Both the position numbers and the translations under genes were made by a program. Positions 3,394 through 47,340 of a DNA stretch of 49,436 nucleotides are shown here, one piece after another. Each line of letters begins with the position of its first letter. The first letter of the stretch is position 1. Location: assembly GCF_003172895.1 (NCBI RefSeq), contig NZ_QGKL01000007.1, positions 1 to 49,436 of the forward strand, written 5' to 3'. The notes under the pieces were generated by a model, which did no database searches, was not told the origin of the DNA, and worked only from the letters and a program-made list of their open reading frames with translations. Source of the DNA: Leucothrix arctica (lineage in GTDB: Bacteria; Pseudomonadota; Gammaproteobacteria; Thiotrichales; Thiotrichaceae).

Positions 3394-3441
3394 TGTTAAT
3401 TATTGTTAATGCCATTTTTTTAGATGGATGGAATTTATACA
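3394..3441 (+). promoter_or_regulatory. Cluster box A and -10 for the secreted protein
   Basis: TGTTAATTATTGTTAAT at 3394-3410 is a 7-bp direct repeat with a 10-bp period. A TATACA -10 candidate starts at 3436, 25 nt after the box, and the coding start follows at 3495. It matches the boxes before the polyketide, porin, LRR, oxidase and thioesterase genes, and is in plus orientation, toward its gene. Confidence 0.65.
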
Positions 3442-3494
3442 TATAAATATCTTGTCCAAGTATATTAATGAATTACATTAGGAGTATGTAAGGA

Positions 3495-4073
3495 ATGAAT
3501 AAGTACATCAGAAAATCGTTATTGCCGGTTCTAGTTATAGGGCTTGGTTTACACACAAGTGTTAATGCAATAGACGTTGAGGGTGGCGTTACTTCACTTC
3601 CTGAGGCAGCCTGCACATTGGAAACGCTTAAAGGTAGCTATACTTGGAGTGAGGCAACTCGCACAGATTATTCTGATTTTGGTTTTTCAGAGTTTGATGC
3701 GGGTTGGGTATATGCAGTTAGTGTAGGACGAGAGGTTAATGATGGTAATGGCAACATTACTTCAGGTCATATGACCATTAATAATACCTTTGCAGATGAT
3801 GCTGATATTCCCGTCGAATTTGGTGGAACGGGCGGCGATTCGATTCTCGAAATTGCTTATACAGGAACAGTAACGGTTAACCCTGACTGCACAGGGACTT
3901 ATAGCATTACCTTATCAACAGGGGGTGATGGCGGCGGTGGTAATATCTATATTGACCCACTGACGGGTAACTTCAAAATGCTGGATATTCATAACATTGG
4001 TATTGCTAACTTTTCCCTCGATGGCTCAGGTGCTGGGTTAAGTAGCCCTTTTCCAAACGTTACTTGGCCATAA
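3495..4073 (+). CDS. Secreted protein of unknown function
   Basis: A 192-residue protein with a clear Sec signal peptide (about residues 1-25, cleavage near VNA-ID). The mature part begins with CTLETLKGSYTWSE and contains DGNGNITSGHMTINN and VNPDCTGTYSI. This layout (Cys-x2-LxGxY, NGNxxSG, then V-x-DCTGTY) occurs in small secreted beta-barrel proteins with no known activity. Two cysteines could form a disulphide. A Gly-rich stretch (GGDGGGGN) lies near residue 152. The AGGAGTATGTAAGGA leader supports the ATG. Its promoter carries cluster box A, so it may belong to the same regulon although it is 7 kb from the oxygenase promoter. Confidence 0.8.
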   Translation: MNKYIRKSLLPVLVIGLGLHTSVNAIDVEGGVTSLPEAACTLETLKGSYTWSEATRTDYSDFGFSEFDAGWVYAVSVGREVNDGNGNITSGHMTINNTFADDADIPVEFGGTGGDSILEIAYTGTVTVNPDCTGTYSITLSTGGDGGGGNIYIDPLTGNFKMLDIHNIGIANFSLDGSGAGLSSPFPNVTWP

Positions 4074-4156
4074 TATAGCTTCTTTTTATTTACAGAAAGT
4101 ACCACACTCTTCGAGTGTGGACATTCGCTAAATTCATTCAAAAAAAGGAAATATTC

Positions 4157-4984
4157 ATGTTTATCAGGAACCTAATAGGAGTCACATCGGCTTCCATCTT
4201 GCTGGTCGCCTGTCATAGTGATGATCATGTAACTGTAACTGAATCTGTTTCAATCGCAAGTGCAGCCTATCAAGGGTCTAAAGTTGCTGCGACTCAGACA
4301 AATGCAACGGCAAGCTACTTTTCAAGATCAGCCTTTGCCGCACGTGATTACTCACTGAGTGCTGCAGGTATCTCTGCATACTTACCTGCACTGGATACTT
4401 ACGGTAGCGAAACTTGTAGCAATGGCGGTAGTGCGAGCCAAGTAAAAAATATCGATGCAACAAGTTTACTTGGTAGTAAAACGATTACCTTCAATAATTG
4501 CATGATTGGTGATGTACTCACAGATGGCAATACTATCATTGAAGTCACTGGCTATGATCAAATGCTGAGTATGCCTACGGCACTCAAAACCACTTACAAT
4601 GGTTTGTCGCAAACGAAAGATGATAAAACAATCATCCTCACTGGTACTGTTGAAGCCACACAAGACCTTGATACGAAGTCTGTAGAGCTTGTATTGGACA
4701 CTCATATGCTAGCAGGTACAGGGGAAGAGGTGCTTACAGAAATGACGATAGTCGTGATCGGTAATACCGTTAAGCGCTCGGCTTCTAGTCAGTATACAGG
4801 TGATGTTTGTATTGATACGGAAGGCTGCGTGAATTTCACGACACAGGTACCTTTTTTGGTTGAGTACAATGGTTATTTGACCGCGGGTGAAATGACGTCA
4901 ACTGGCGAAAATAGTAACACGGCAAAGATTGTTGTTGATGAAAGCAACTCTGTCGCTATTAACCTAGTTGCCGAAAGCTCATAA
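4157..4984 (+). CDS. Putative lipoprotein of unknown function
   Basis: Start chosen at ATG 4157, after AAAAAAAGGAAATATTC, rather than an upstream in-frame start at 4115, because residue 1 then begins a lipoprotein signal: MFIRNLIGVTSASILLVAC with a lipobox (LVAC) at about residue 19. The 275-residue product is rich in Ser and Thr and predicted mostly beta. Two cysteine pairs are visible in the mature part (ETCSNGG with FNNCMIG, and VCIDTEGC). No domain is recognised. It sits 83 nt after the secreted protein, in the same direction, and before a strong hairpin, so the two are likely one transcript. Confidence 0.75.
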   Translation: MFIRNLIGVTSASILLVACHSDDHVTVTESVSIASAAYQGSKVAATQTNATASYFSRSAFAARDYSLSAAGISAYLPALDTYGSETCSNGGSASQVKNIDATSLLGSKTITFNNCMIGDVLTDGNTIIEVTGYDQMLSMPTALKTTYNGLSQTKDDKTIILTGTVEATQDLDTKSVELVLDTHMLAGTGEEVLTEMTIVVIGNTVKRSASSQYTGDVCIDTEGCVNFTTQVPFLVEYNGYLTAGEMTSTGENSNTAKIVVDESNSVAINLVAESS

Positions 4985-4993
4985 AGCGATGCT

Positions 4994-5035
4994 AATAAAC
5001 TATTTTTCTCTCGTATTTGAGAAAAATAGTTTATT
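4994..5035. terminator. Perfect 17-bp hairpin after the lipoprotein gene
   Basis: AATAAACTATTTTTCTC (4994-5010) is the exact reverse complement of 5019-5035, with an 8-nt loop. It begins 9 nt after the lipoprotein stop codon. The stem is AT-rich with no extra T-run beyond it, so it is probably a terminator or mRNA-end stabiliser, possibly acting for both strands. Between it and 5243 no gene is seen. Confidence 0.6.
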
Positions 5036-5243: not shown

Positions 5244-7520
5244 TTAGCCGTTTTTTAGCTTTGCCGCTTTTCTATTTTTCATCGTCAGACTGATTAAAGG
5301 TCCAATGAACTTAAAACCGGCCTTTGTCTCTAGTGTCGTTTCAAACTTTTTAGCGACACGGGTGAAAGCCAGATAAGCCACCCAAATTCGTTCCCATTCA
5401 CGCTGCATTACATCATGTCCCTGAGTCGTCAGCACCTGATCTAGATACAAATGCACCGTCTCCATTGCAACGGCTGTATGGCCAGACGCAATATTATCGA
5501 TAGTCAGGTGTAAGGTGAAGAAATAAGAATCGACCTTCCAATAATTGAGTTCATCAATAATGGTCATATAATCCTTACCTAAGCCACTGAGCTCAATCGC
5601 CAGATTGACCCCAATTATTTCTGGCAGCATAGCTTTAGGAAACATCGAAATGGACAGTGTCAGCAAAGGTAGGTCAAATGAAAAGTCTAGCAACTCTGGT
5701 TGCATCGAAAATTCACGTGATGCCGTTGGCGGCATATGAATCCCTTCACCTTCCAGTAAGCGGCGATATACATTGGGGTGATTCATTGCAGTGTCGGCAT
5801 TACCCACTTCATCGGAATAAATTCGAAAGAGCCGTGCGGATATATCCGTGTGTGACATACCTGCTTTAGCGATATTCTGTACCCAAGACCCGTCGACCAT
5901 CGTAAAGGCGGCATATTGTTGGGTAAACCACACCATGATTTCACGTGGTACCGTTGAAGGGGCAACAAAGCGTTGGTAAGCATTCGTTTCCGACTGGTAA
6001 ATCTGTTGAATGCGCGACTCAAAGGCATCATGACTGTAAACAAAAAAGCGCTGCAGCGGTGGCAGCTTACGCTTATTCATTGCGGTGCGAGCCTCTTTAA
6101 AGTACTGCGCGGCTACCTGTTTGGCTGTCGGCATGACATCTGGATACACATCAGCATTGACGAAGTAATAATACAGATCTCGTTTTTTACTCTTCGCATA
6201 AGTGGCTAAATCTGGCGAGACTAACGCCGGCATGGGAGGGGGCAAAACGTCTGGCTTATTGAGCGCCACCGGTGGCATACGCGCTTCATTAGCAATAGCG
6301 CCGCCCTCTGACAAGCTATGTACCCATTCCTCCATAATATCCATTTCAGCATCGGTGAATATACGAAACATCGGGCCGCCAAAAGCCACACTACGTGTGA
6401 TCAGTTGACTTTTTTCAGGAGACTTTTGATTAACATACGGAGAGGCAATCAGCGCGTTTAAAAAGCCTTCGGCATCAAAAGGCTCATCAGCAAACCAGTC
6501 ATTGATATACCGTTTCCCAAAGCGTTTGTTTCGGTGCATATTGCGCGCATGTGGCGCCTTAGCAATCACCATTTCGAGCATTTTCTGGTGAGGTGTTTTC
6601 TTTTGAGGGGTATCGAGTCGAAGATGGACGATAGTCCGTAAGTTATTACTTAAACTGTCATGAGTGACTAGGCCGGACCAAATACGCTGCCAATGTGCTT
6701 GACGTACCGTATCATCCAATTGAGCAAGGTATTTCATCACAGTGGATTGAATATGTTGCACTTGCTGATCCAATGATTCTGATTCATGGTATTGCTGGAT
6801 ATATCGCGTATCAACACCCTGTGATTTCAATGCGGGTTCTTGCTGGAGTAGCACACTGTGCTGTCCACTCACTAAATGACCTAATGTATAGCCTATTAGC
6901 TCAGGTAAATAAACGCGTGGAAATAAAGATAACGCCAACTCAAACACCGGTTTTTGGAAAGCAGTACCTTGAATATCACGATGAGTTGTAAATAAACGCG
7001 TATTGATCTCTGGTAGATAGACACGACCACTTCTCAATAAGTCACGGTACAAATTCCCATAGTGATGACGAGTATTCCCATCACCAATTTTCTGTGTGTA
7101 GATGCAAAATAAGCTTGCAATGGTTTCGTCATGACAGTTCGCTGCCAATGAAATATTTTGTAACCAAGCACCGTCTAGTAAGGCCGCAGGTGCTTGCTGA
7201 CACAGGATATACTGTGACTGATCGGGTGTAAGAGTGTGTTGGAGATGAGTATGATTTTGTTCGCTTATCGTCTCCATACGCGCACTAAACGCTTCAGGTG
7301 TGTACTCGAAAGATTCTAACCATTGAGGTAATTGTTCAGAAGTATTAATCGATACTGTTGTTTGTGCCAAATAGCCTTCAACGAGGTGTTTTGCCCGAGG
7401 CAATACGCTAACGTACTCATCACTATTAATTAAATAATAGAATAATTCTCGCTCTGGTGTTTCCGCGTAACGTTGTAAGTTTATTGCTACCTGTTTACCT
7501 AATGATACTTGGATCGACAC
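5244..7520 (-). CDS. Tandem haem-oxygenase-like diiron (iron-containing redox) protein
   Basis: A 758-residue protein with a GTG start after AATAGGTAACTCTT. It has two homologous halves: residues about 15-370 and 415-745 share (D/E)L(Y/F)YY..N.D.Y..V.P.AK, then DGxWxQNI, then a helix ending YR.LL, and an SLFPRVYLPELIG / SMFPKAMLPEIIG pair. This pattern is that of iron-containing redox enzymes in the haem-oxygenase-like diiron oxidase superfamily (relatives: UndA, SznF). The C-terminal half keeps RIYSDEVGNAD and HLTIDNIASGH, with likely iron-binding Glu, His and Asp. The N-terminal half has YTQKIGDGN (Lys for Glu) and an irregular HxxxxxxDxxxxH, so it may be catalytically dead. Last gene of the minus operon, 9 nt after its neighbour. 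Substrate unknown; oxidative tailoring is inferred. Confidence 0.7.
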   Translation of the reverse strand: MSIQVSLGKQVAINLQRYAETPERELFYYLINSDEYVSVLPRAKHLVEGYLAQTTVSINTSEQLPQWLESFEYTPEAFSARMETISEQNHTHLQHTLTPDQSQYILCQQAPAALLDGAWLQNISLAANCHDETIASLFCIYTQKIGDGNTRHHYGNLYRDLLRSGRVYLPEINTRLFTTHRDIQGTAFQKPVFELALSLFPRVYLPELIGYTLGHLVSGQHSVLLQQEPALKSQGVDTRYIQQYHESESLDQQVQHIQSTVMKYLAQLDDTVRQAHWQRIWSGLVTHDSLSNNLRTIVHLRLDTPQKKTPHQKMLEMVIAKAPHARNMHRNKRFGKRYINDWFADEPFDAEGFLNALIASPYVNQKSPEKSQLITRSVAFGGPMFRIFTDAEMDIMEEWVHSLSEGGAIANEARMPPVALNKPDVLPPPMPALVSPDLATYAKSKKRDLYYYFVNADVYPDVMPTAKQVAAQYFKEARTAMNKRKLPPLQRFFVYSHDAFESRIQQIYQSETNAYQRFVAPSTVPREIMVWFTQQYAAFTMVDGSWVQNIAKAGMSHTDISARLFRIYSDEVGNADTAMNHPNVYRRLLEGEGIHMPPTASREFSMQPELLDFSFDLPLLTLSISMFPKAMLPEIIGVNLAIELSGLGKDYMTIIDELNYWKVDSYFFTLHLTIDNIASGHTAVAMETVHLYLDQVLTTQGHDVMQREWERIWVAYLAFTRVAKKFETTLETKAGFKFIGPLISLTMKNRKAAKLKNG

Positions 7521-7529
7521 AAGAGTTAC

Positions 7530-9328: not shown

Positions 9329-10540
9329 TTAGCTAGTCTGGTCAAGCGCATCAAGCACTCTGTTTGAAAAGGTATAATGCATGTTGTCCCAAAATGGGGC
9401 ATAAAACTGCTGCTCAAATGCGGGAGAATGTCGCGCTTTTTGCACCGCTTCGGTGATAACTCCATCCTCCATACCCGCACCTTGAAAGTCAGCCTGTAGA
9501 GCCTCACGCTCTTCTGCAACATCATGATCAATCGCTGACTCTTCATCATAAAACTGTGCCCTCAATGTTTGAGTTTTTCCCGCACTGATCGGCAGAACAA
9601 TAATCATGTGGATGAAGCAAGAAAAAGCGGCAATGTGCACATTAGGGAAGAAAGAACCAATGAACCCTTTCTCAGGCGAGCAATTTGGATCTACCCCTAA
9701 GTGGTTCAGTGGTAAGTCATCTAACTCATAGGTCTCAGCAAAATCTTCCTCTAGATAAGACAAAGCCATCAAGTCACCGTCAATATGCTCGACGTATGTT
9801 TTTTCACCATTATCATTGACACGAGGTATTTGTGAAGACTCGTGATAAACCTCATGAGTGAAGCCTTCATGTAACACATTAAGCGCCCAGTTTTCATAAT
9901 GTGTTTTCCAATTTGTCGCTAAATGTTCCTGGTCAATCAGCAAAGTGTCATCCGCTGCTAAACCGATACGCATCTCACCTGTTCGGTACCCCGTTAATAT
10001 CTTTTTCAGCGGGGAGATATGTGCTTCAAAATCATTTTTCTTTCCTGATAAATCAACAAATAAAATACCTAACTCATTACGACTAGTGACCTCGATTAAA
10101 TCGCCCTTGCGACCTTTTAAGGCGGATAAATCTGGTTGTTTAAAACCATCCCAAAAGGGAATGGAAACTAGCTTCCCTTTTAAATCATATTGCCAGCCAT
10201 GATAAGGCGTACTGATCTTATCGACCGTTGCGGCTTCAATAACGGCTAAGCAACCATCATAAGGAACAATGTTGTGAAAGACACGCAACTCATTATCGTC
10301 TCCACGAACAATCAATAAAGGCATTCCTAAAAATTCAATCGGCAGGACACTACCAAGTTCTGATAGTTGCTGAGTAAAGCAAACCGCAGACCAGTGCTGA
10401 CTAAAAATACGCTCACGTTCCAAATCAAAAAAAGACTCATCCGTGAAAGCTTTACGTGGCAACGTCATTGCCTCATCAATCGGTGCGCGAATGAGCGATT
10501 GTTGTTTGTCACTAATCCAATGTTGCAGCGCTTCAGTCAT
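9329..10540 (-). CDS. Rieske-oxygenase-like protein lacking the Rieske cluster ligands
   Basis: A 403-residue relative of ring-hydroxylating oxygenase alpha subunits. Start at ATG 10540 (AAGG 8 nt before) rather than a TTG at 10546. The N-terminal domain has the family frame (FHNIVPYDG, then STPYHGWQYDLKGKL), but the expected Cys-x-His is Val-Pro-Tyr and the second Cys is Thr. Three of four [2Fe-2S] ligands are therefore gone and only the last His remains. The catalytic domain keeps NWKTHYENWALNVLHEGFTH, giving His-x4-His for mononuclear iron, with Asn where Asp/Glu is usual. It could be an iron enzyme using another electron source, or a non-redox descendant. First gene of the minus operon, from box B. 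Confidence 0.8.
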   Translation of the reverse strand: MTEALQHWISDKQQSLIRAPIDEAMTLPRKAFTDESFFDLERERIFSQHWSAVCFTQQLSELGSVLPIEFLGMPLLIVRGDDNELRVFHNIVPYDGCLAVIEAATVDKISTPYHGWQYDLKGKLVSIPFWDGFKQPDLSALKGRKGDLIEVTSRNELGILFVDLSGKKNDFEAHISPLKKILTGYRTGEMRIGLAADDTLLIDQEHLATNWKTHYENWALNVLHEGFTHEVYHESSQIPRVNDNGEKTYVEHIDGDLMALSYLEEDFAETYELDDLPLNHLGVDPNCSPEKGFIGSFFPNVHIAAFSCFIHMIIVLPISAGKTQTLRAQFYDEESAIDHDVAEEREALQADFQGAGMEDGVITEAVQKARHSPAFEQQFYAPFWDNMHYTFSNRVLDALDQTS

Positions 10541-10605
10541 ACACAAACCTTAATTCATTCAAATGAGTCTCTCGCCACTTTCAGTCACAGCGAGTCTTTT
10601 GAGAG

Positions 10606-10654
10606 ATTATCAGTCGCGCTTTGAGCCTCAAAGTGCGTTTAACAATTCTTAACA
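10606..10654 (-). promoter_or_regulatory. Cluster box B and -10 for the oxygenase operon
   Basis: Minus strand 10654-10638 reads TGTTAAGAATTGTTAAA, a direct repeat with 10-bp period. TGATAAT follows, with the -10 hexamer at 10611-10606 and 26 nt between. The start codon of the Rieske-like gene is at 10540. The orientation is opposite to box C in the same divergent 334-bp region, which holds no gene. Confidence 0.7.
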
Positions 10655-10729: not shown

Positions 10730-10780
10730 TGTTAAGAAATGTAAAGTTTCATTGCTGAGAAAAACACCTTTCCCTAGACT
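10730..10780 (+). promoter_or_regulatory. Cluster box C and -10 for the polyketide operon
   Basis: TGTTAAGAAATGTAAAG at 10730-10746 has the same 10-bp-period repeat. TAGACT at 10775-10780 is the best -10 candidate, 28 nt beyond. The transcript would have a leader of about 90 nt before the hydroxylase ATG at 10875, and could cover genes to 38703. Confidence 0.65.
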
Positions 10781-10874: not shown

Positions 10875-11921
10875 ATGATTTCTCGGCTTCAATTAACCAC
10901 CACAGAAATTCAGCTCATCGAACAGCTGTTGGCAAACGTCTCACGACAATTCACTAGCCCTGAAGATCCTGCATTCTTACATGATGCGGTGGTTATCTCT
11001 CATGAACTGCCAATTAGGACTCGCCAGTTTTTAAACACATTTCGCTTAAGTGAACCGAGTGATGCAGTCGTGTGCGTTATTTCTGGATACCCTATTAATC
11101 ACACAAAAATTGGTCCTACACCGCTAGGTCGTGGTGAAAAGTCGGATACCGATCGCACCCTCCAAGAGCAAATGTTATTAGTGCTATTTGCCTCATTACT
11201 GGGTGACCCTGTCGCATGGTCAACGCAGCAAGCGGGACATATTATTCATGACATTTCGCCCGTTAAAGGGCAAGAAAATGACCAAACAGGCTCTAGTAGC
11301 GAAACAGAACTACTCTTCCACACGGAAGATGCCTTTCACCCTTACCGAGGTGATTACCTTGGCATGATGTGTCTGCGTAATTATAACCAAGCGTCAACCT
11401 CAATTGCCTCCAACCGTGCGCTGTCTATGTTGACAAAAGAGCAAGTTAAGAAACTCGTGCAACCGTGTGTTTTTATTAAACCGGATGCGAGCCAGTTTGA
11501 AAAACATGATTTCCCTGACATGGCTGGGTTGAGCACTGAGGTGATTTCAGAATTCATTCGTTATTCGGATGAAAAAATCAAAAAAATGGATGATTTTCCT
11601 GAAGCAGTCCCAGTGCTATTTGGAGACCCACGTTCACCTTATATTCGTGTTGATTGCCCTATCTACATGGATACATTGGATGACGAAACAGAGGATGCTA
11701 TCAAAGCGCTCAGTGATGCGTTTAAGCAAGATCAAGAAGATCTCACGATGTCGGCTGGCGAAATTTGCTTTATTGACAATCTTCGCTCAGTCCATGGTCG
11801 TAATCCTTTCACCCCCCGCTATGACGGGAATGATCGTTGGTTAAAGCGCGTCAATATCACACGGGACATCCGTAAATCGCGCGACATGCGAATTACAGAT
11901 ACATCACGCATCATATTCTAA
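10875..11921 (+). CDS. VioC-like Fe(II)/2-oxoglutarate amino-acid beta-hydroxylase
   Basis: A 348-residue member of the clavaminate-synthase-like group that includes the arginine hydroxylase VioC, OrfP and AsnO. The iron site is visible: HTEDAFHPYRGDYLG (His-x-Glu, about residues 155-157) and the distal His in FIDNLRSVHGRNPF. The 2OG-binding Arg lies in DRWLKRVNITRDIRKSR. A GSSSE loop before the HTED motif is also family-typical. Known relatives hydroxylate free Arg, Asn or similar amino acids at C3. The substrate here is unknown; a guanidino or imidazole amino acid is plausible. First gene of the long operon; the ammonia lyase starts 9 nt later. It may modify the amino acid used by the terminal PLP domain of PKS 2. 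Confidence 0.85.
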   Translation: MISRLQLTTTEIQLIEQLLANVSRQFTSPEDPAFLHDAVVISHELPIRTRQFLNTFRLSEPSDAVVCVISGYPINHTKIGPTPLGRGEKSDTDRTLQEQMLLVLFASLLGDPVAWSTQQAGHIIHDISPVKGQENDQTGSSSETELLFHTEDAFHPYRGDYLGMMCLRNYNQASTSIASNRALSMLTKEQVKKLVQPCVFIKPDASQFEKHDFPDMAGLSTEVISEFIRYSDEKIKKMDDFPEAVPVLFGDPRSPYIRVDCPIYMDTLDDETEDAIKALSDAFKQDQEDLTMSAGEICFIDNLRSVHGRNPFTPRYDGNDRWLKRVNITRDIRKSRDMRITDTSRIIF

Positions 11922-27100: not shown

Positions 27101-28884
27101 CTGATCTTGGTCTACAAACGCTTAACAACCTTATGCAGTTACCGTTGCACCAAAGTCCAGCTCAAGTGGGTGTATTCCCGATGAACTGGGCTATGTTCAT
27201 GCAGCAGTTTCCAGAAGATCAACAACCACCGTTCGTTAGCTTAATGGCTAGACAATCGATGCAAGGCTCAGCGGTCAAATCTAAAGCAAAGAGCGGAACC
27301 TCCGACATTCTCGTGCAACTGAAGAGCAGCAGTGGTGATGAGCAAAAAACAATGCTTATCAACTACATTAGTGAGCAACTATTACAGGTCCTAGGTCTTG
27401 ACAGTGATCAAAGCTTACCCGCTAATCAGCCGTGGAATGAACTGGGCCTAGACTCACTCATGACGGTCGAGCTAAAAAACCGATTAGATCGTAGTTTGCG
27501 CGTCTCAGTACCGATTGAAACGATCATGCAAGAAGCAACCACGTTGCTGATTGCCGATATGATTATTGATAGCCTCGCGAATGTCAGTCTAGATACAGCA
27601 GAGAATGAAGCAACAAACGAAGGAATCAGTGCGGCACAAAAGCACATGGATGCCCTTAATAGCGATGTTGAAATGTTGGCGTTGATTCCTCAGACCTATA
27701 CGAATGTGGAAGAGCAGCGTGACCGTCAAGTACTCATCAACGGTCAATGGCGTAGTGATTTTGCCTCATGCAACTACTTGGGTATGGATCTTCACCAAGA
27801 CGTCATTGATTCTATTCCTGCCGCTTTGGATAAATGGGGTGTTCACCCTAGTTGGACACGTGCGGTTGCCTCTCCGGGTCTTTATCCAGAGCTGGAACAG
27901 GAACTTGCGGATTTGGTCGGTGCGCCGAAAACGCTAATATTCCCGTCAATTCACCTGCTACATATGGGAGTGTTACCGTTACTTGCTGGTTTTGGTGGTG
28001 TTATTTTAAAAGATAACTCAGCTCATCACTCAATCTATGAAGCATGTTTACGTTGTCAGGCTGATGGGATTGAATGGACTGAGTTCGCACATAATGATTT
28101 GGATGCGCTGGAAGAGAAGCTAAAACGCTATCGCCCAGATCAAAATAAAATTATCGCAATTGATGGTGTTTACTCAATGTCAGGCGAGTTCCCACCTCTA
28201 CCTGAGATGTCAGCATTAGCCAAAAAATACAATGCAATCATATACCTTGATGATGCTCACGGAATTGGTGTCATTGGTGAAAACCCTACCGAAGAGATGC
28301 CTTACGGCTATGGCGGTGGTGGTGTTGTGAAGTATTACGGTATGGATTACGAAGCAGACCGCATTGTTTATGTGGGTGGCCTATCAAAGTCGTTTTCTTC
28401 ATACGGTTCTTTTGTAACCTGTTTTGATCAAGCCATGAAGTCACGCTTGAGTCTGGCAGGGCCATTCGTTTTCTCTGGTCCTTCTCCCGTTGCCAGCTTA
28501 GCAAGTGCTCTGGCAGGGCTGAAAGTCAACCGCAAAGAAGGTGACCAGATGCGTGAGCGAGTCTACCAACTCACACGCAAGCTAGTGAGTGCAGCAAAAG
28601 ACATGGGCTACGAAGTTGATAATGAGCACAACTTCCCTATTGTGGGAGTGGTTATTGGGAACGTAGACGAAGTGACTGAAGCATGTGACATGATGTGGGA
28701 ACACAATATCCTAATTACGCCAGCTATTTATCCAGCGGTTGCTATGCATCGTAACCTTGTTCGTTTTTCGATCACCGCCTCAAATACTGAAGCAGAAATA
28801 GACCAAGCCATTACTGCACTGCAAGCGGTACGGAAAATGGTTCTAGCTAAACGAGATACTGCCCAACTTGAGGTCCAAGGCTAA
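21157..28884 (+). CDS. Polyketide synthase 2: KS-AT-DH-ER-KR-ACP-alpha-oxoamine synthase
   Basis: A 2575-residue synthase. ATG 21157 is preferred to a TTG at 21148; CAGGAAGAG lies upstream. The N-terminal [13 protein letters not shown] is docking-domain-like. KS from 33 (Cys in NTACSSS), AT from 561 (GHSVGE, HAFHS: malonyl), DH ([11 protein letters not shown] near 953, LLDACLQ), ER from about 1450 with NADPH loop [16 protein letters not shown] from 1786 ([15 protein letters not shown]), ACP near 2094 (LGLDSLM). Residues 2175-2570 are a PLP alpha-oxoamine synthase ([11 protein letters not shown] Lys in [11 protein letters not shown]), related to AONS, serine palmitoyltransferase and SxtA4. The module is fully reducing. 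The PLP domain should release the chain by decarboxylative condensation with an amino acid, giving an alpha-aminoketone. The stop overlaps the ATPase start. Confidence 0.93.
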
Positions 28885-31007
28885 TGATTATCAGTGGCGC
28901 AGTCGTTGCTGCGAGTGGTGTGTACCTAGGGGCCAAGGCTTTTGGCTTGCTCCCTTCTCAACACAGAGCAAGAAAAAAAGGTAAATCTTTAGTCATTGCA
29001 CCTAAAGCTGAAGAAAAATCTTTAAGTGTGGTGGAAGGGGACGAAGAGCATGATGAGGAAGTTAAAGCGCTGAATCATTATTTAACCGTCTCTTCGGGAG
29101 TATTAGCAGTGTCACTGGGAACATTAGTCGTGTTTCCAGCAGCGCACATTATTGCTATCCCTCCATTACTGTACACATTGGTACCAATGTTTATGGATGC
29201 CTATGACGGTTTGAAAGAGAAAAAGCTCAAACCGTCTCTTGTGGACAGTATTGCTGTCTGTGGTGCGCTAACGCTAGGTCTTGTTAATAACTTAAACCCA
29301 TTCTTCTTTATGGCGGGTGCAGCAGGTGTATTCTTATACTTTCTGTCCGCAAAATTAGTACTGAAAACAAAAGATCAATCCATAAAGAACCTCTCCAATT
29401 TATTTGGCGAGCAAAGCCGTTTTGCCTGGGTATTACAAGATGGAGTTGAAATTGAGGTCCCTTTTGATGAAGTAAAAGTTGGCGATATTGTCATCGTTAG
29501 TGCTGGTGAAATGATTCCAGTAGATGGCTCTATTGCCAGTGGTATTGGCTCTGTTGACCAGCGTATGCTAACGGGTGAATCTCAACCCGTTGAAAAAGGT
29601 GTCGGTGAATCTGTTTTTGCTGCCACCACATTGCTCTCTGGTCACTTGCAAATAACAGTGGAGAAAGCAGGTGCAGATGCAGTTGCTGCGCAAATTGGTG
29701 AGATTTGGAGTCGGACTGCCGATTATAAAACCGGTATCGAGACTAAAGGCGAGCAGCTTTCCAATAAGTCAGTGATTCCAACACTCGGTGCGAGTTCGTT
29801 AGCTTTAGTAACACTCGGCCCAATTGGCGCAACCGCCATTCTATTATCTAACTTTTCTGATGCCATTCAACTTTCAGCACCATTAAGTACACTGAATTTC
29901 CTCCATCTAGCAGCGAAAAGTGGAATCTTAATTAAAGATGGTCGTGCACTCGAAGGTTTGAGGGACGTCGATACGGTTGTCTTTGATAAGACGGGTACGC
30001 TGACATTAGATGAGCCCCATGTAGGCGCTATTCACCTGTCAGCGAACTGGAGTGAAGACGAACTACTTAGCTTTGCTGCCGCAACTGAAGTGAAGCAAAG
30101 TCACCCTGTTGCTAAAGCAATCGTCAAAGCTGCTAAACAACGTAACCTTGAACTACAGCCATTAAACGAAGCCAGCTATGAAGTTGGTTATGGTATCAAG
30201 GCCCAAGTTGATAACCGTTGGGTACGCGTCGGTAGTAACCGCTTTATGACGAGTGAAGGCATTGAAATACCTGAGCATATTCAGCAACAACTGACCGAAG
30301 GCCATACTCTAGGCTATACCTTAATTATGGTCGCCATTGATGATGAGTTGGGTGGAGCCATTACACTACAGCCAACTATTCGTCCTGAAGCCAAGGCCAT
30401 GATCGAAGGCTTAAAAGCACGTGATTTGTCCCTTTGCATTATTTCAGGCGACCATGAATTACCTACAAAAGCATTAGCAAATGAATTAGGTATTGAGCAA
30501 TATTTCGCAGAAACCCTCCCAGAAGACAAAGCGACGCTGATTGCACAACTACAAGATGAAGGCCGTAAGGTTTGCTTTATTGGTGATGGGATCAACGACA
30601 CGATTGCATTAAAGCAAGCTAATGTGTCAATTTCACTCAGTGGTGCTGCAAGTGCCGCAACCGATACTGCACAAATCATTATGATGGATGGCAGCTTAAA
30701 CTACCTCAATCATGTGTTTGACTTATCCAATGAATACGACAACAACCTACGTAATAGCTATCATTCGGTGTTAGGTGGAAGTCTGCTTTGTGTCGGTGGT
30801 GTGTTCTTTTTCCACTTTGGTATTTTTAGTGCGCTGAGTTTGCAGGCACTTACCCTAATGAGCAGCGTTGGTAATGCTTTCTTGCCTCTTCTGAAAGGCG
30901 CTGATGCAAAGCCAACACTTACGCCAGTCGAGCACATGACTGACGCTGAATTCGAATCAGGAGGTGAACATGTCGTATCTACAAGCAAGACACGGAATAT
31001 TACCTAA
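28884..31007 (+). CDS. P1B-like cation ATPase without CPC metal motif
   Basis: A 707-residue P-type ATPase; the start overlaps the PKS 2 stop (TAATG). Conserved motifs: TGES in the actuator domain, [11 protein letters not shown] phosphorylation site, SHPVAKAIV (the HP motif of heavy-metal ATPases) and [13 protein letters not shown] in the hinge. Membrane segments lie near residues 1-20, 70-125, 300-330 and 630-675. The transmembrane motif that is CPCALGLATP in copper, zinc and cadmium pumps is here [10 protein letters not shown], and there is no N-terminal metal-binding domain, so the usual metal site is missing. It may carry another ion or the product, or act in maturation. Its C-terminus is related to the ATPase at the window's edges. 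Confidence 0.88.
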
Positions 31008-39413: not shown

Positions 39414-40109
39414 TTAAAAACCGAAATGCTTAGTCCATGTAACACTCACACGTGGATCACCTAAGCCAAAATCTTCAATATCATTATCATCCAAAGCAAA
39501 CTTAAATCCATCTTTACTGATAGACGCTTGATAATGGGTATAGCTCGCATTACTTTGAGAGTCGACATAACCGGCTGCAAAACCATATCCGATACCTCGC
39601 GCAGTCTTACCGTTATAGCTCAACAGATAATAAGCGTCGTGCTCATTGTCATCGGAGCCATCGTTATCCTTTTTATCGAGGGTATAGTCGATTTCAAAGT
39701 CAAATCCTTTGTAGCCTATCACACCATACACTTCGGAATAGTCTGTACCACTTAGGTCATCGTCAGCAGCAGGAAATGCATAGTACATATACCCCATGTC
39801 ATAGCGAATACCATTGGCTGTTTCACCCGTATAACCACCGTATACGTCGACTTCATAAGTCTGTTCAGTATATTCAGCAGGAGGTAGATGAACATTGGCA
39901 CCAAGAACACCGACGTAAAAACCACTCGCAAAATTCTTACGTAAATTACCTGTCACACTAGGGCCATCATCAGAGACGGTCACTCCACGCCCCATTTTAT
40001 TACTGGATACTTCTATTGTGGCATATGCCTGAGCCATTGCCTGTGTAGTAAATACTGCTGAACTAATTAGTACACCAGCGGTAATCATCTTTTTATATGT
40101 GTTGTTCAT
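39414..40109 (-). CDS. TorF/Gcw_chp-type putative porin
   Basis: About 231 residues with a signal peptide (ending TTQAMA-QAYATI). The rest is amphipathic strands with many aromatic and Asp residues (YEVDVYGGYTGE, RYDMGYMYYAF, YGVIGYKGFDFEIDY) and a terminal Phe (VTWTKHFGF), as for outer-membrane barrels. The pattern matches the Gcw_chp/TorF putative porin family. Two starts are possible: ATG 40109, or TTG 40118 which is 4 nt from GGAGG; ATG is listed. Box D drives it and box E drives the divergent LRR gene, so it probably belongs to the cluster's regulon. It could be an outer-membrane exit or entry route. Confidence 0.82.
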   Translation of the reverse strand: MNNTYKKMITAGVLISSAVFTTQAMAQAYATIEVSSNKMGRGVTVSDDGPSVTGNLRKNFASGFYVGVLGANVHLPPAEYTEQTYEVDVYGGYTGETANGIRYDMGYMYYAFPAADDDLSGTDYSEVYGVIGYKGFDFEIDYTLDKKDNDGSDDNEHDAYYLLSYNGKTARGIGYGFAAGYVDSQSNASYTHYQASISKDGFKFALDDNDIEDFGLGDPRVSVTWTKHFGF

Positions 40110-40151
40110 CGCTTTCAAAAAGCCTCCGATAATGAAATTACAATCCCTACA

Positions 40152-40202
40152 ATTTTAATGAAAGCGCATTTGGCAAGACACCAAAGTTAACAAAAATTTA
40201 CA
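40152..40202 (-). promoter_or_regulatory. Cluster box D and -10 for the porin
   Basis: Minus strand 40202-40186 reads TGTAAATTTTTGTTAAC, a direct repeat with 10-bp period and slightly diverged first half. A TAAAAT -10 candidate is at 40157-40152, 28 nt beyond. The porin start lies about 43-48 nt downstream. Confidence 0.55.
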
Positions 40203-40253: not shown

Positions 40254-40302
40254 TGTTAAGAAGTGTTAAGAAAACATTACTCTTTAACGAGAATTCAATA
40301 AT
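40254..40302 (+). promoter_or_regulatory. Cluster box E and -10 for the LRR gene
   Basis: TGTTAAGAAGTGTTAAG at 40254-40270 is the most perfect repeat (both halves GTGTTAAG with a 10-bp period). AATAAT at 40297-40302 is the -10 candidate, 26 nt beyond; the LRR start is at 40336. Confidence 0.7.
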
Positions 40303-40335
40303 CTGATTTATACATACATAACTTGGATAAACACT

Positions 40336-42474
40336 ATGCTTCTTCCCATAATGACCTTTGGCAAAAGGTTTTTTTTGCTTCTTGTTTGCTACAGCGTGCT
40401 CTCAGTTAGTCACGCAAAAAATGAAAGCGATCACGATTCTACGACAGATAAAATGATTGAACGAATCACTAGCCTCAATGGCAGCGTGGTGGTTAAACAT
40501 GAAGGAGAACATGGCTTAGGTCGTCAAATTTTGGAGGTTCATTTACCGGAGCTCAGAATCAGTGATGAGCAACTGAAAAAAATCAGTACGATTCAAAGTA
40601 TAGAGTCGATTGAAATGACGGGGGACTTATTCACTATTGGCCCTATGCCAGATGATGTGTTGGAGTGGCTACAAACTCAAACAGAATTAACCACGATTAA
40701 AGTGAATGGCTTCCCGGTTACAGACAAAGGCGTCGAAAGCTTAACCAACTTGCCCAACCTTAAATCTCTGGAGCTTCACGGCACCCGAGTAACCGACAAA
40801 AGTCTGGCAACGCTAAAAACAATGCCTCAGCTTGAAGCGCTTGGTTTCGGTCAAAGCCGTATTCAACGAGTGTATCGCCATTACTTCCGTGGAAATAAAA
40901 TTACGGATGCGGGCCTAGAGCAACTCAAAGGTTTGCCTAACTTGAGTCGCTTATCACTCTACACTACTGACATTACTGACAAAGGCATGGAGTCGCTGAA
41001 AAATTTCAAGCAATTACGTGAGTTGGAGCTTGGACATACACAAATCACCGATAAAGGCCTTGCCGTACTGGAAGCAATGCCACATTTGCAGTTATTGGGT
41101 CTGGATGGCACGTTGATCAGTGATGCAGGACTAGCCGTAGTTAAAGGGATGACTCAACTGCGTGAGCTAAGCCTTAACTACACGGCTGTGACAGATGCAG
41201 CAACGGCTCACTTTAAAGACTTAACGGCTTTACATCGCCTCAGCTTACAACGTACGCAAATCAGTGATGCAGGTCTCGACACACTATCAGGCCTAACCAA
41301 CTTAAAAGAGTTAGATTTAGGCTTTACTGCCATTACAGATAAAGGCTTAACGACGCTTAGCAACAAAATATTCCTCAAGCACCTTTTTCTTGACGGTACG
41401 CAAATTAGTGATGCAGGCCTAGCATCGTTAGCAACGTTGACCCGTCTAAGTGATTTGGACCTTAAATACACAGGGATTACCAGTGTAGGCCTAGAATCGC
41501 TTAACACTCTCACGGCACTACAGAAACTGACACTCGCCAATACTGCAGTTGATGACAAAGGGCTTGCGTTTTTAGCAGGCTTCCCTCAACTATGGGAATT
41601 AGACTTATCTGGTACCGCGATTAGTGATAAAGGGCTTGTTCACTTGAGCACCCTACCCGTACTTGGACTCAATCTTGATGGGACGAAGATCACAGATGCC
41701 GGCATGACCAGTATCGGTAAGCTGCACAACTTGCTTGAACTCACCATGGAAAGCACAGGCATTACCAGCAAAGGTTTTGAGTCATTAAAAGGCTTAACCT
41801 CATTGCGTATTCTGAAGTTTGCTGAAACAGCTGTGACTGATGAGGCCGCTAGCATTATTCAAACAATGAAGGGCTTGAATATTCTAGGTGCAAGTAATGT
41901 GACTGGCATTACGGATAAAAGTATTGAGCTTCTCCAGCACCTGCCAAAGATTCATACTATGGAGCTTCGCGGGACGTCTATCACGGATAACGCCGTTGCT
42001 ATGATGAGTAAGTTTGATCGCATGCACTGCTATGACCTAGCGGGAAGTGCCGTCACTGCTGAAGGACTTAAAAGTCTTAAAAACTATAGTAATGTTCACT
42101 CTCTCGCGCTGGATGCTGGTCAAGCAACCTCCGAAGGTTTGGCTGCGGTGAAAGAAGGACTCGCACTCTTCCAAGAGCTTTATTTCTATGGGCCACAGAT
42201 TGATGATGCCTTCATTAAAGCCAATAAGTCAGTCCTTAATGGATTGCAAGAGATGAACTTGTTTGGAACTGGTCTCACGGATGCTGGATTGAAAGACCTT
42301 GCTGAAATCACAAGCCTGACGACCATTCGCATTGCTCAAGAAGGTCTAAGTCCAGAAGCACTAGACGCCTTCCGTAAGTCCATGCCAAATGTAACGGTTG
42401 CAGCAGTCGGAGAAGCAGGTTGGAGCTTCATTAAACCATGGGGTGGCGCAACAGGCAGCAGTACAATGCCTTAA
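40336..42474 (+). CDS. Secreted leucine-rich-repeat protein
   Basis: A 712-residue exported protein with signal peptide (about residues 1-27, ending VSHA). From about residue 110 it is built of roughly 20 LRRs of about 24 residues with consensus L..L..L..L.L..T.ITD.GL, the bacterial type. One unit is interrupted near 40864-40902 by a 13-residue insert (QRVYRHYFRGNKI) rich in Arg and Tyr. Only one Cys in the mature part. Such repeats bind proteins or surfaces. It is divergent from the porin, with box E in its promoter, and ends at a strong shared terminator. A periplasmic scaffold or recognition role is inferred. Confidence 0.85.
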   Translation: MLLPIMTFGKRFFLLLVCYSVLSVSHAKNESDHDSTTDKMIERITSLNGSVVVKHEGEHGLGRQILEVHLPELRISDEQLKKISTIQSIESIEMTGDLFTIGPMPDDVLEWLQTQTELTTIKVNGFPVTDKGVESLTNLPNLKSLELHGTRVTDKSLATLKTMPQLEALGFGQSRIQRVYRHYFRGNKITDAGLEQLKGLPNLSRLSLYTTDITDKGMESLKNFKQLRELELGHTQITDKGLAVLEAMPHLQLLGLDGTLISDAGLAVVKGMTQLRELSLNYTAVTDAATAHFKDLTALHRLSLQRTQISDAGLDTLSGLTNLKELDLGFTAITDKGLTTLSNKIFLKHLFLDGTQISDAGLASLATLTRLSDLDLKYTGITSVGLESLNTLTALQKLTLANTAVDDKGLAFLAGFPQLWELDLSGTAISDKGLVHLSTLPVLGLNLDGTKITDAGMTSIGKLHNLLELTMESTGITSKGFESLKGLTSLRILKFAETAVTDEAASIIQTMKGLNILGASNVTGITDKSIELLQHLPKIHTMELRGTSITDNAVAMMSKFDRMHCYDLAGSAVTAEGLKSLKNYSNVHSLALDAGQATSEGLAAVKEGLALFQELYFYGPQIDDAFIKANKSVLNGLQEMNLFGTGLTDAGLKDLAEITSLTTIRIAQEGLSPEALDAFRKSMPNVTVAAVGEAGWSFIKPWGGATGSSTMP

Positions 42475-44103: not shown

Positions 44104-44114
44104 AGTGTCTATTC

Positions 44115-44615: not shown

Positions 44616-44648
44616 AGTTTTCTCTAATAAATGACTAGAATTCATCAA

Positions 44649-44688: not shown

Positions 44689-44709
44689 ACTTTGAACAAC
44701 CGAGGCTAA

Positions 44710-47124
44710 TTAGTGACTATGAGTACTATCAGTCGTACTCCCCACCAACACCTCATGTGTTGTGTCGTTTACCGCTAAGTTTACATAAGGGTTAGTTGGT
44801 CCCGTCAACTCAGTAGCCATGACAGTAAAGGACTTATTCTCCAATGCATCTTTATCGATAGTGCAGACCAAGATACCGCTATCCTCAGCTAGCGTGTCGA
44901 CAGTAATACCATCCGTCGTCCACACGCCATTACTTTCATCCCATGAATACAAAGCAACGGTGCTCGTGTCATAGTCATTACCCCGCGTAAGCGCCTGAGC
45001 ATAGTGCACGGTTACTCTAGCGACACCCTTATCGGTTAACGGCTCTGATGATTCCAAGTAAAACGAACGTTCAAGTACCGCCATACCTACGTCAACAAGC
45101 TCAACGGGCTGTAGCTCAAATTGATACTCAACCGTTGCATCTGCACTTAAACTACCCGCAGCAAACTCGATGCGCAAACGGCTTTCAGCGTCTACATCAT
45201 TCGACGTTTGTGCATTACAATTAACGGAGCCACCCACAGAAGCCACAATGCTGCTAGTAACAGGAGAACCATCGACCACTTCACACAGATGCATCATGCC
45301 TTCATCTTCATGTGCAATGACGTGGCAATGCATTGGGAATATTCCGGTGAACTTCTCAAAACGATGTCGAATCACAGCTTTACCACCATGAGGTACATCA
45401 ATAGTATCTGCCCAATAATTCGGATAATGGATATCAAACGTTGGATCGCCATTGTCATCCAAAACATGATCGCCATTCTCATCTCTGATCGGCTCATGAA
45501 CTTCTTTTAAGTGGAACCAATTAACATGAATATGGAACGGGTGATTGATTTGGTTGAACTGCAGAGGGCCGGTATGGACATTAGTAATTGTCCACTCTTC
45601 AGTATCGCCCAATAGCATTGTTTCATTAATACGAGCGGCATTAAACGGAGTGCTGTTGATGGTGAATTTTCTGTTATCAATCAGAGCGACATCACCCTCA
45701 ACTCCAGAAAAGTTAGCACTCACCTGGCCTTCAACCTTAAACTCTATGGTGCGGTTCCTAGATACATGTTCAATCGGTGGCAACCTATCTGAAGGGGGAT
45801 TCAATGACGTAGGTAATGGCATATCATTCACATCACCAGCAATATTCACTTCTAAGATGACGAGTTCAGTCGCACCAACAGAAGGGGTAGTAAATGCAGG
45901 TAACCAGAATAAGATTTCGGTAAAGTCATCATTAAAAATTGGGAATTCATTAACATTCGTTCCATTACCATCAGCACCAAATTGGTCATAAAGCATTTTC
46001 AGTTGGTAAGTGCCAGGCTCAGTTGGCGCCTTAATCAGCAAGTCTAAACGATTACCTGGGCCCGTTATTAGCTCTTCATGCTCACTAATTTCATCAGCAG
46101 TAATACCATCCCACGCAGCAACACGAAGCGGAATATGATCTTCATTGGTTGGATCATTTGCATTGACCAACTTAAATCGGTACGTCTGCAAATGACATAG
46201 CATGCCTAAACGCCACCGTTGAAGTTCACCGGGAACCATATCAATCTGTGGCGGAGTCGCCGTCCCTGAAATCGCCAATCCGTTAGCATCCCGTTCGACA
46301 CCTTCATCAACGGCTTTACCGTTTAAGGTATACTGCATATAAGCTTCTTGGGCGAATAAGCTGTATATCGGGTTACGCTCATAAGCTTCAGGCTTAGTAA
46401 AGTCAATAGGCCGAGTGAGATCAACACCGGGAGTACCTTCATTAGGAACCGTTCCATAATTACTTGCATTAATCCCAACAATAAGCTCATGAAACGCTAA
46501 CTCAACATCACGTGCAGCGGCAATTTCAGGGATCTCATTAAGGTCATCCTTTCCGCCTTCAATGATTAAGAAACCACACATTCCACTGGCCATCTGGTGC
46601 AACGCAGAACCGTGCTTATGTGGGTGATACCAGAAGGTTCCTGATGGGTGATCCTCAGGAATAGTGATTTCATGTTCGATTGTCTCACCGGGATGCACCA
46701 CATGAAGCACGTTATCTTCAATACCTCTCGGAGAAACATTTAAACCATGCGTATGCAAATTTGCGTTATTGAAGCCATGAGGAATATTGATATCCGCAGG
46801 ATGAAAATGATCCTCTGCTGACGCTTCAAGATTATTCACAAAGGTGATTTTCATCGTATCACCCGGCTTAGCGACCAGTGTTTCCGGAGGAAAATTACCA
46901 TTAAACGTACGGTAATCTAAGGGAATACCTTGAACCATTCCTGCTACTGAGTTTCTCTCAACACTCATATAATACGGTGCATTTTCATTCACATAGACAC
47001 GATTCATTTCCGGAATATTATTAGCATTCTCTGTCGCATGAACTCCGTTGTCATCATGGCACCCTATCAAGGAAACCGTTGGTACCGTTGCCCCTGTGAA
47101 CTTTAAAAAATCACGTCTTTTCAT
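44710..47124 (-). CDS. Tat-exported multicopper oxidase
   Basis: An 804-residue protein. It opens MKRRDFLKFTGATVPTVSLI: twin-Arg signal, followed by a lipobox-like LIGC, so it is exported folded and perhaps lipid-anchored. Copper-site His motifs in order: HTHGLNVSP, WYHPHKHGSALHQM, HPFHIHVNWFHL and MHCHVIAHEDEGMM (His-Cys-His, T1/T3). After the oxidase domain (about residue 610) comes a 190-residue beta-rich extension ending STDSTHSH, not usual in CueO or laccases. It could oxidise the product, a phenol, or metals in the periplasm. First gene of the minus operon, with box F upstream. Confidence 0.92.
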   Translation of the reverse strand: MKRRDFLKFTGATVPTVSLIGCHDDNGVHATENANNIPEMNRVYVNENAPYYMSVERNSVAGMVQGIPLDYRTFNGNFPPETLVAKPGDTMKITFVNNLEASAEDHFHPADINIPHGFNNANLHTHGLNVSPRGIEDNVLHVVHPGETIEHEITIPEDHPSGTFWYHPHKHGSALHQMASGMCGFLIIEGGKDDLNEIPEIAAARDVELAFHELIVGINASNYGTVPNEGTPGVDLTRPIDFTKPEAYERNPIYSLFAQEAYMQYTLNGKAVDEGVERDANGLAISGTATPPQIDMVPGELQRWRLGMLCHLQTYRFKLVNANDPTNEDHIPLRVAAWDGITADEISEHEELITGPGNRLDLLIKAPTEPGTYQLKMLYDQFGADGNGTNVNEFPIFNDDFTEILFWLPAFTTPSVGATELVILEVNIAGDVNDMPLPTSLNPPSDRLPPIEHVSRNRTIEFKVEGQVSANFSGVEGDVALIDNRKFTINSTPFNAARINETMLLGDTEEWTITNVHTGPLQFNQINHPFHIHVNWFHLKEVHEPIRDENGDHVLDDNGDPTFDIHYPNYWADTIDVPHGGKAVIRHRFEKFTGIFPMHCHVIAHEDEGMMHLCEVVDGSPVTSSIVASVGGSVNCNAQTSNDVDAESRLRIEFAAGSLSADATVEYQFELQPVELVDVGMAVLERSFYLESSEPLTDKGVARVTVHYAQALTRGNDYDTSTVALYSWDESNGVWTTDGITVDTLAEDSGILVCTIDKDALENKSFTVMATELTGPTNPYVNLAVNDTTHEVLVGSTTDSTHSH

Positions 47125-47188
47125 TTAGTGAACCCTGTCATGTTTCCTCAAAAAAATGAGGATGATATAGTGAAAAATAGCAATTAGA

Positions 47189-47237
47189 GTAATAAAGGGA
47201 GGTGCCTCGCAGCAATGAAAATTAACATTTCTTAACA
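47189..47237 (-). promoter_or_regulatory. Cluster box F and -10 for the oxidase operon
   Basis: Minus strand 47237-47221 reads TGTTAAGAAATGTTAAT. TATTAC at 47194-47189 is the -10 candidate, 26 nt beyond. The oxidase ATG is at 47124. It is divergent to box G. Confidence 0.7.
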
Positions 47238-47289
47238 TTTACCAACGACCTATCATTGCTCTATATATCGTGGGTAAATCGCAGAATTT

Positions 47290-47340
47290 TGTTAAGAAAT
47301 GTTTATTAACATATATTTATTAGCTTTATGAAATTAGGCT
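47290..47340 (+). promoter_or_regulatory. Cluster box G and -10 for the thioesterase operon
   Basis: TGTTAAGAAATGTTTAT at 47290-47306, 10-bp period, second half diverged. TAGGCT at 47335-47340 is the -10 candidate, 28 nt beyond, matching the spacing at box C. The thioesterase ATG at 47383 has no obvious ribosome site. Confidence 0.65.

Follow-up and report, generated by a model that had tools for sequence, protein, structure and literature searches.

We study a short repeated DNA element in a biosynthetic gene cluster of Leucothrix arctica and the regulator that is likely to read it. The window, by which we mean the whole stretch of DNA that was analysed (49,436 nucleotides), is the whole of contig C42 of the L. 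arctica genome (G000; 4,751,432 bases, 44 contigs). It carries two type I polyketide synthases (PKS) within a long plus-strand gene run, together with oxygenase, oxidase, thioesterase and leucine-rich-repeat (LRR) genes, and a 17-letter tandem direct repeat, the box, lies upstream of five of these units. A preliminary description of the window had listed seven such boxes and predicted their joint control by a response regulator encoded elsewhere. We find that a conserved cluster-wide operator is real and that the regulon is well supported; we consider it likely that the box is read by a response regulator of the OmpR/PhoB family that is dedicated to the cluster, RR2, whose gene lies on a second contig of the same genome (C15).

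The seven sites were scored by their mismatches to TGTTAAGNNNTGTTAAK and with a weight matrix and a sequence-only profile (R1), both trained on 44 boxes that all come from genomes other than G000. Because these 44 sites were gathered with a pattern derived from the window, the ranking of the window sites is partly circular in its box part; the results for the -10 element, the spacer and contig C15 are free of this circularity. R1 E-values are rough. Offsets are counted from the start of the box. The sites are:

10638..10654, minus strand: box TGTTAAGAATTGTTAAA, confirmed; 5' of the Rieske-oxygenase gene; -10 element TAATCT at 10609..10604; matrix rank 2; genome-wide R1 E-value 4.4e-4
10730..10746, plus strand: box TGTTAAGAAATGTAAAG, confirmed; before the run with the GntD-like hydroxylase, MIO lyase, PKS and P-type ATPase; -10 element TAGACT at 10775-10780; matrix rank 4; E-value 0.0087
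40254..40270, plus strand: box TGTTAAGAAGTGTTAAG, confirmed; before the LRR protein gene; -10 element TAATCT at 40299-40304; matrix rank 3; E-value 0.03
47221..47237, minus strand: box TGTTAAGAAATGTTAAT, confirmed; before the multicopper-oxidase gene; -10 element TACTCT at 47191..47186, offset 46; matrix rank 1; E-value 1.3e-4
47290..47306, plus strand: box TGTTAAGAAATGTTTAT, confirmed but weaker; before the thioesterase and 4'-phosphopantetheinyl transferase (PPTase) genes; -10 element TAGGCT at 47335-47340; matrix rank 5; genome-wide E-value 2.95
40186..40202, minus strand: box TGTAAATTTTTGTTAAC, doubtful and degenerate; before a TorF-type porin gene (39414-40118, minus strand); TAAAAT at 40157..40152, offset 45
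3394..3410, plus strand: box TGTTAATTATTGTTAAT, unsupported; before a gene for a 192-aa unknown protein (3495-4073); matrix score at chance and no TANNNT at offsets 44-46

All seven sequences are present where the preliminary description placed them, on the strands it gave, with no mismatch to TGTTAAGNNNTGTTAAK at 40254 and 47221 (minus), one at 3394, 10638 (minus), 10730 and 47290, and three at 40186 (minus). When up to three mismatches are allowed, the window holds 21 matches, where shuffled sequence has 12.1 on average and 19 at most, so loose matches prove little by themselves. The five best matrix matches in the window are, in order, 47221, 10638, 40254, 10730 and 47290, with scores from 29.4 to 20.5; the maxima of shuffled windows average 9.1, the largest of 100 shuffles is 20.7, and 47290 alone lies just inside this extreme. 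Ranks 6 and 7 fall to 7333, within a gene (12.9), and to 38823 (11.4). The two other listed sites, 40186 (9.1, rank 8) and 3394 (7.1, rank 9), score at chance level, and R1 does not recover them from the whole of G000 at E-values up to 10. Five of the seven sites therefore stand by the matrix.

The -10 element is seen independently of these scores. The first letter of a TANNNT lies exactly 45 nt from the start of the box at 10638, 10730, 40186, 40254 and 47290 (the chance of at least five in seven is 4e-7) and 46 nt from it at 47221. For the distance from box to -10 element, given earlier as 25-28 nt, we thus find 28 at five sites and 29 at 47221; 3394 has no such element in this range. The one point in favour of 40186 is its TAAAAT at offset 45, although the 11 boxes with a TTT spacer found elsewhere have none there. 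The weaker site 47290 has a counterpart in another genome (G043), where a box with two mismatches heads a homologous thioesterase-PPTase pair (48% and 39% identical), near that genome's RR2, hybrid kinase and gene for a histidine-phosphotransfer-like (HPt-like) protein. As for joint control, boxes are confirmed for the oxygenase, polyketide, LRR, oxidase and thioesterase units, and the memberships of the porin gene and of the gene at 3495 are not established. The arrangement of one box per direction holds in two of the three divergent regions in the list (10638/10730 and 47221/47290).

Now we consider the rest of the genome. With at most one mismatch the pattern has 14 matches in G000, against 2 for a reversed control, and 6 of the 14 are in the window. 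Three of the eight outside it fall on C15 (P 1.5e-5), which with its 30.7 kb makes up 0.65% of the genome outside the window. R1 likewise gives 14 matches at E-values up to 10, the best seven being C42:47221-, C15:10343-, C42:10638-, C15:28317+, C15:14996+, C42:10730+ and C42:40254+ (E 1.3e-4 to 0.03), so that the top three matches outside C42 in 4.75 Mb are all on C15 (P 3e-7). The C42 scores are partly circular; the clustering of the best outside matches on C15 is independent. The seven best matches are divided between these two contigs, four on C42 and three on C15. The eighth match, C16:19104 (E 0.19), ends 54 nt before an open reading frame (ORF) for a 703-aa P-type ATPase. Beyond it, C37:349982, with at most one mismatch, reaches an R1 E-value of 3.99, and further weak R1 matches lie on C37, C25, C11 and C44 (E 0.37 to 2.4). 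We rejected the two-mismatch counts as a regulon list, these being too noisy (123 against 64 in the control), as well as the matches with at most one mismatch on C4, C11 and C29, which R1 does not recover.

C15 and C42 also share history, because decayed copies of parts of two C15 genes, those for the C45 hydrolase and the hybrid kinase, lie in the window at 230..815 (plus strand, 87-91% DNA identity) and because the window ends in a repeat. This is a 230-bp direct repeat, 1..230 (minus strand) and 49207-49436 (97%), which consists of the 3' part of a P-type ATPase gene and is probably the reason why the assembly broke at the window ends. Comparison of the ends of C15 and C42 showed no overlap.

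To describe the box beyond one genome, we searched a family sample of 63 genomes, G000 included, with the exact pattern TGTYAAGNNNTGTTAAG. There are 39 exact boxes in 9 of the 63 genomes, against 3 control matches, and they are clustered: six lie within 49 kb in G052 and nine within 125 kb in G025. From the extracted regions we aligned the 51 boxes with at most one mismatch and full flanks, 7 of them from G000; this set omits boxes too close to the ends of the extracted regions. The usual form is TGTTAAG-AA(A/T/G)-TGTTAAG, 17 letters, beside a class with a TTT spacer (TGTTAAGTTTTGTTAAG, e.g. at L108:19266, L239:15212 and L243:2631, with a degenerate copy at C15:27107). The spacer, N3 in the preliminary consensus TGTTAAG-N3-TGTTAA(G/T), is constrained, being exclusively AAA, AAT, AAG or TTT in the 39 exact boxes. 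Across the half-sites most boxes read GTTAA-N5-GTTAA, with GTAAA on one side in a few. The sequence on the 5' side of the box is A-rich, and a faint CTT follows at offsets 21-23, the place of a -35 element with a 17-bp spacer. TANNNT occurs at offset 45 (28 nt past the box end) in 18 of the 51 sites, where the other offsets average 1.35 sites each; after similar flanks are collapsed it is present in 17 of 49 distinct sites (P 4e-15), and in 12 of 42 when G000 is left out.

We also looked at where the boxes lie relative to genes. Among the 47 of the 51 sites that lie in joined stretches, and with crude ORF calls, none is well inside an ORF (82% of random positions are) and 31 have a same-strand gene start within 300 nt (11% of random positions do). 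With tandem direct half-sites about 10 bp apart upstream of promoters, the boxes have the layout of an OmpR-type operator. A variant of the box, TGTTAAGAAATGTTGCG, occurs at 8 places in the 11 loci scanned (at most one mismatch), 6 of them having AATAAT or TTTAAT at offset 45. In G052, G061 and G050 it stands at the head of gene runs that lead to RR2, which we read as autoregulation.

Which protein would bind the box? A Pfam scan of 29 window proteins found no DNA-binding regulator domain, in agreement with the earlier statement that the window holds no regulator gene, and among the 21 scanned proteins of C15 DNA-binding domains occur only in RR1, RR2 and a transposase fragment. The C15 genes in question are:

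C15:10766-11485, plus strand: RR2, OmpR-type response regulator (PF00072, E 3.7e-24; PF00486, E 3e-19)
C15:5067-5801, minus strand: RR1, BaeR-like OmpR-type regulator (BaeR model 263 bits, cut-off 380)
C15:15684-18005: hybrid kinase with 7TMR-DISM sensor, HisKA and receiver
C15:14146-14517: gene for the HPt-like protein

RR2 joins a receiver to a winged-helix Trans_reg_C domain, as in the OmpR/PhoB family, and an acidic pair, Asp61, Ser89 and Lys111, which we take to be the receiver residues needed for phosphorylation, are invariant or nearly so in the alignments. Its highest model score is for OmpR (NF007005; 171.6 bits, cut-off 331), with 114 of 341 bits for CpxR and 109 of 334 for ArcA. Of the three C15 proteins with a DNA-binding domain it alone is a best match in the clusters of other genera. 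The genes for RR2, the HPt-like protein and the hybrid kinase are near neighbours in six genomes. In the three genomes examined for this the kinase combines 7TMR-DISM, HisKA, HATPase and receiver domains, as expected of a hybrid kinase in a phosphorelay, and the HPt-like protein has an invariant His65 (AHRTISS..LYGS context) in four sequences.

The distribution of RR2 follows that of the box. A search across 193 genomes gave 41 RR2 matches, 30 of which, mostly one per genome, were placed in a tree with two RR1 rows (one fragment removed, one copy added). RR2 falls in a clade of 12 rows from 10 of the 63 family genomes, spread over five genera, and genomes with exact boxes supply 10 of these 12 rows against 1 of the 18 other rows. 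By genome, the exact box is found in 8 of the 10 with an RR2-clade gene and in 1 of the 53 others (Fisher 1e-7). R1 matches at E <=0.02 occur in 10 of 10 and in 2 of 53 (Fisher 5e-10), although the family-wide R1 run used stricter filters that lose weak matches; the two positive genomes without an RR2-clade gene are G007 (two boxes) and G054 (one). The association is kept among genomes that contributed no training sites, where R1 matches occur in 3 of 3 with an RR2-clade gene (G000, G006 and G043, the last two fragmented assemblies) against 1 of 52 others (P 1.5e-4). A contig scan with the RR2 alignment recovered mostly general OmpR-family genes. Outside the family, box-like matches were examined in five genomes: they lie inside ORFs in G177, G112 and G119, beside a dapB-like gene (named by eye) in G109, and beside a CpxRA-like pair in G165.

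The genes around the boxes fall into a varied biosynthetic part and a recurring part. In the window they are:

5244-7520, minus strand: Haem_oxygenas_2 protein (Pfam)
9329-10546, minus strand: Rieske oxygenase (Pfam), first gene of a minus-strand run to 5244
10875-38703, plus strand: same-strand gene run (ORFs, Pfam/NCBIfam) with a GntD/VioC-type hydroxylase, an MIO aromatic lyase, two type I PKS and a P-type ATPase, and also a short-chain dehydrogenase/reductase (SDR), a methyltransferase, MscS, OmpA-BON, CCP_MauG and others
40336-42474, plus strand: LRR protein
44710-47124, minus strand: multicopper oxidase
47383-48150, plus strand: thioesterase
48147-48884, plus strand: PPTase

Judging from their spacing, the genes from 10875 to 38703 probably form one operon. 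The Fe(II)/2-oxoglutarate hydroxylase at 10875-11921 scores above the GntD (L-enduracididine beta-hydroxylase) model cut-off, and the second PKS ends in an aminotransferase domain; a GntD-type hydroxylase beside an MIO lyase and two PKS with a terminal aminotransferase is an unusual combination. Around RR2 in other genera we find a run of SPFH, binding protein, ArtJ-like, ammonium-transporter-like, ABC and C45 hydrolase genes, along with DUF697 proteins, relatives of the window's P-type ATPase (28884), OmpA-BON, MscS, PPTase and thioesterase, in a set that varies by genome. In four genomes (G052, G025, G061 and G030) the TTT-spacer boxes have the SPFH gene on one side and a DUF697 gene on the other. 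The biosynthetic cores differ: PKS in G000 and nonribosomal peptide synthetases (NRPS) elsewhere. One NRPS of G052 has a terminal reductase domain, G025 has NRPS bearing sulfotransferase and thioesterase domains, and G015 has an adenylation-decarboxylase protein (two of these NRPS and adenylation proteins were scanned in part).

The box-linked P-type ATPases have features of their own. Those of the window (28884-31007) and of L017 (9176-11287) pass the NCBIfam heavy-metal P1B model and keep DKTGT, TGES and GDGIND, but their CPC metal motif is missing from its usual place; aligned by eye, the window copy reads FSD there. A box-linked relative at L016 8509-10221 is cut short and has no GDGxND, and relatives of about 250 aa with the actuator domain only recur in several genomes. 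In the paper collection searched, nothing joined DUF697 with P-type ATPases. The listed titles and abstract openings of papers on Leucothrix or Thiothrix with polyketide, nonribosomal peptide or response-regulator/two-component themes held nothing on this system. Papers listed for the bare half-site were mostly about primers or other subjects, and those listed for the regulator held nothing relevant. A plasmid search with one chassis protein gave 118 records, all below 60% identity, with the ten listed at 25-28%, and one with a single intergenic stretch gave no match.

Drawing these observations together, we propose the following mechanism. The membrane hybrid kinase (C15:15684-18005) would sense a signal and hand phosphate via the HPt-like protein to RR2, and phosphorylated RR2 would bind head to tail at the box, just upstream of the -35 region, with the box centre near -49 if transcription starts about 7 nt past the -10 element. 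From this position we infer activation rather than repression: RR2~P would recruit RNA polymerase. Such recruitment at a shared box would let one signal turn on the biosynthetic operons, the tailoring oxidases, the thioesterase-PPTase pair, the LRR protein and the P-type ATPase/envelope set together. Since five promoters share the box and its spacing, and the box recurs around a matching regulator in related genera, one signal probably switches a combined cell-surface and natural-product programme.

The binder is probably the cluster-associated RR2 and not the host's CpxR or OmpR. It is unlikely, though worth serious attention, that the boxes belong to a host regulator of envelope stress, of general CpxR or OmpR type, which would tie the cluster into the stress response. 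For CpxR the box is GTAAA-N5-GTAAA (PMC3127752), and the half-sites here, GTTAA-N5-GTTAA, have the same 10-bp period, as the preliminary description had remarked. Moreover, G054 has a box with a -10 element TATACT at offset 45 before a CpxRA-like pair that is divergent from a CpxP-like gene (L265, G054:C13, about 10615-10645), and G165, of another family, has a triple repeat just past the 3' end of a CpxA-like kinase gene (L118, G165:C21 8401-8427), which follows a regulator gene whose best model is CpxR (201 of 341 bits). In G000 itself, no gene reaches the cut-off of the CpxR equivalog (NF008199, 341 bits), the best scoring 228. The most CpxR-like gene (C4:53651) has orthologues at E 1e-70 only in G003 and G004 (77-78%, same genus), which have no R1 matches and pattern counts not above control, and none in the box-rich genomes of other genera. 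In G054, CpxA and CpxP are the best models but their cut-offs are not reached, and the regulator, with equal scores for PhoB and CpxR, finds no relative at E 1e-60 among the 62 remaining genomes of the family. Finally, the boxes in the stretches examined belong to one recurring gene system. Another of the OmpR-family genes of G000 may still be a reader of this general type. The outside regulator predicted earlier accordingly has a candidate in RR2 and is probably not the host's CpxR or OmpR; no G000 gene passes the CpxR cut-off, and RR2 is under that of OmpR.

Other proteins of the gene set may be considered in the same way. RR2, the boxes and the SPFH gene set are co-inherited (9 of the 63 genomes carry the SPFH gene, each of them with an RR2-clade gene; G006, 64% complete, has none), and the set is rich in uncharacterised proteins (DUF697, 169-aa, 192-aa), so another of its members could bind the box, with RR2 merely co-travelling in a mobile set. 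We regard this as distinctly improbable, given that RR1, RR2 and the transposase fragment are the only proteins with known DNA-binding domains among the 21 of C15 and the 29 of the window that were scanned, and that a 10-bp tandem repeat is a usual target of an OmpR-family dimer. RR1 as the binder seems slightly less probable again. A perfect box, C15:10343, lies upstream of the run of YHYH, 169-aa, kinase and RR1 genes, yet the nearest relative of RR1 (74%, G004) is in a genome without R1 matches and RR1 is never the best match in other clusters; we rejected it as the regulator, and it looks like a target. That the boxes have no regulatory role and are repeats that spread when promoter regions were duplicated is hardly credible: the system does contain duplicated genes (P-type ATPases, the 230-bp terminal repeat), but the flanks are unrelated, 49 of 51 being left after those at least 60% identical are collapsed, and clear conservation is confined to the box and the distant -10 element.

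Several observations weigh against RR2 as the dedicated reader of the box. RR2 travels with the whole gene set, so that its co-occurrence with the boxes does not on its own tell it apart from its neighbours. The clade was delimited with box counts already known, its support (91/93) is under the tool's starred level, and only RR1, RR2 and C4:53651, of 19 OmpR-family matches in G000, were put through the distribution test. RR2-like rows outside the clade have nearly the same presumed recognition helix, yet their genomes, with the exception of G007, have no exact boxes, so that specificity is not accounted for by this helix alone. For the HPt assignment, neither Pfam nor PDB sequences give an HPt match to the HPt-like protein. 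Among the promoters, the perfect box C15:10343 has no -10 element at offset 45, 16 of the 47 boxes have no same-strand start within 300 nt by the crude ORF calls, and some aim into the 3' end of the adjacent gene. The TTT-spacer boxes (11 of 51) have no TANNNT at offset 45, their matches to it peaking at 49 and 54; they may be a second promoter class. The G054 and G165 boxes adjoin CpxRA-like genes where no RR2-clade gene is present, so the type of operator resembles that of CpxR and does not belong to RR2 alone. G007 also has no RR2-clade gene and carries two exact boxes on a 7.5-kb contig (L244, G007:C8). This contig also encodes a hybrid kinase and, spread over two ORFs, a P-type ATPase, and one box flank is nearly identical to a G052 flank, perhaps through recent transfer or as a remnant.

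If RR2 is the reader, a wider picture can be put forward, tentatively but as a real possibility: a portable regulon, in which the phosphorelay (hybrid kinase, HPt and RR2), the 17-bp operator with its fixed geometry and an envelope/transport chassis would be inherited as a unit across genera, and unrelated PKS or NRPS cores would join by acquiring the box. The chassis would comprise the P-type ATPases without the CPC motif, the DUF697 and SPFH proteins, the ABC exporter and the C45 hydrolase. The operator would then mark every chassis-recruited gene, including distant ones such as the P-type ATPase gene on C16. The pattern suggests that the control and transport machinery, and not the product, is the conserved heart of these clusters. 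For practical purposes a silent biosynthetic cluster gains a named candidate switch, and the box serves as a signature for finding member genes in G000 and nine relatives with an RR2-clade gene. It also makes the role of the odd P-type ATPase/DUF697 set testable, because loss of one regulator should silence the set.

It is useful to place this system beside known ones. ArcA sites are direct repeats with the same TGTTAA half-site; they differ in that the ArcA repeats are 11 bp apart, and RR2 reaches 109 of the 334 bits of the ArcA model. Many OmpR-family members bind direct repeats that vary in sequence and spacing (PMC7380067). The box is close in form to that of CpxR, being a tandem direct repeat with half-sites 10 bp apart and one letter off (GTTAA against GTAAA). 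As in the CpxRA regulon, the reader would be of the OmpR/PhoB family, and this type of box adjoins CpxRA-like genes in two relatives; the difference is that the boxes here lie on a biosynthesis and transport set and that the sensor near RR2 is a hybrid 7TMR-DISM kinase. A further parallel is Shewanella SO2426, described in PMC3127752 as an orphan CpxR-like regulator with a tandem 14-bp motif that controls a siderophore operon. The two cases share a response regulator and a tandem motif upstream of a biosynthetic operon, whereas here one operator and one regulator clade, along with a P-type ATPase/DUF697/SPFH set, accompany PKS and NRPS cores that vary among five genera.

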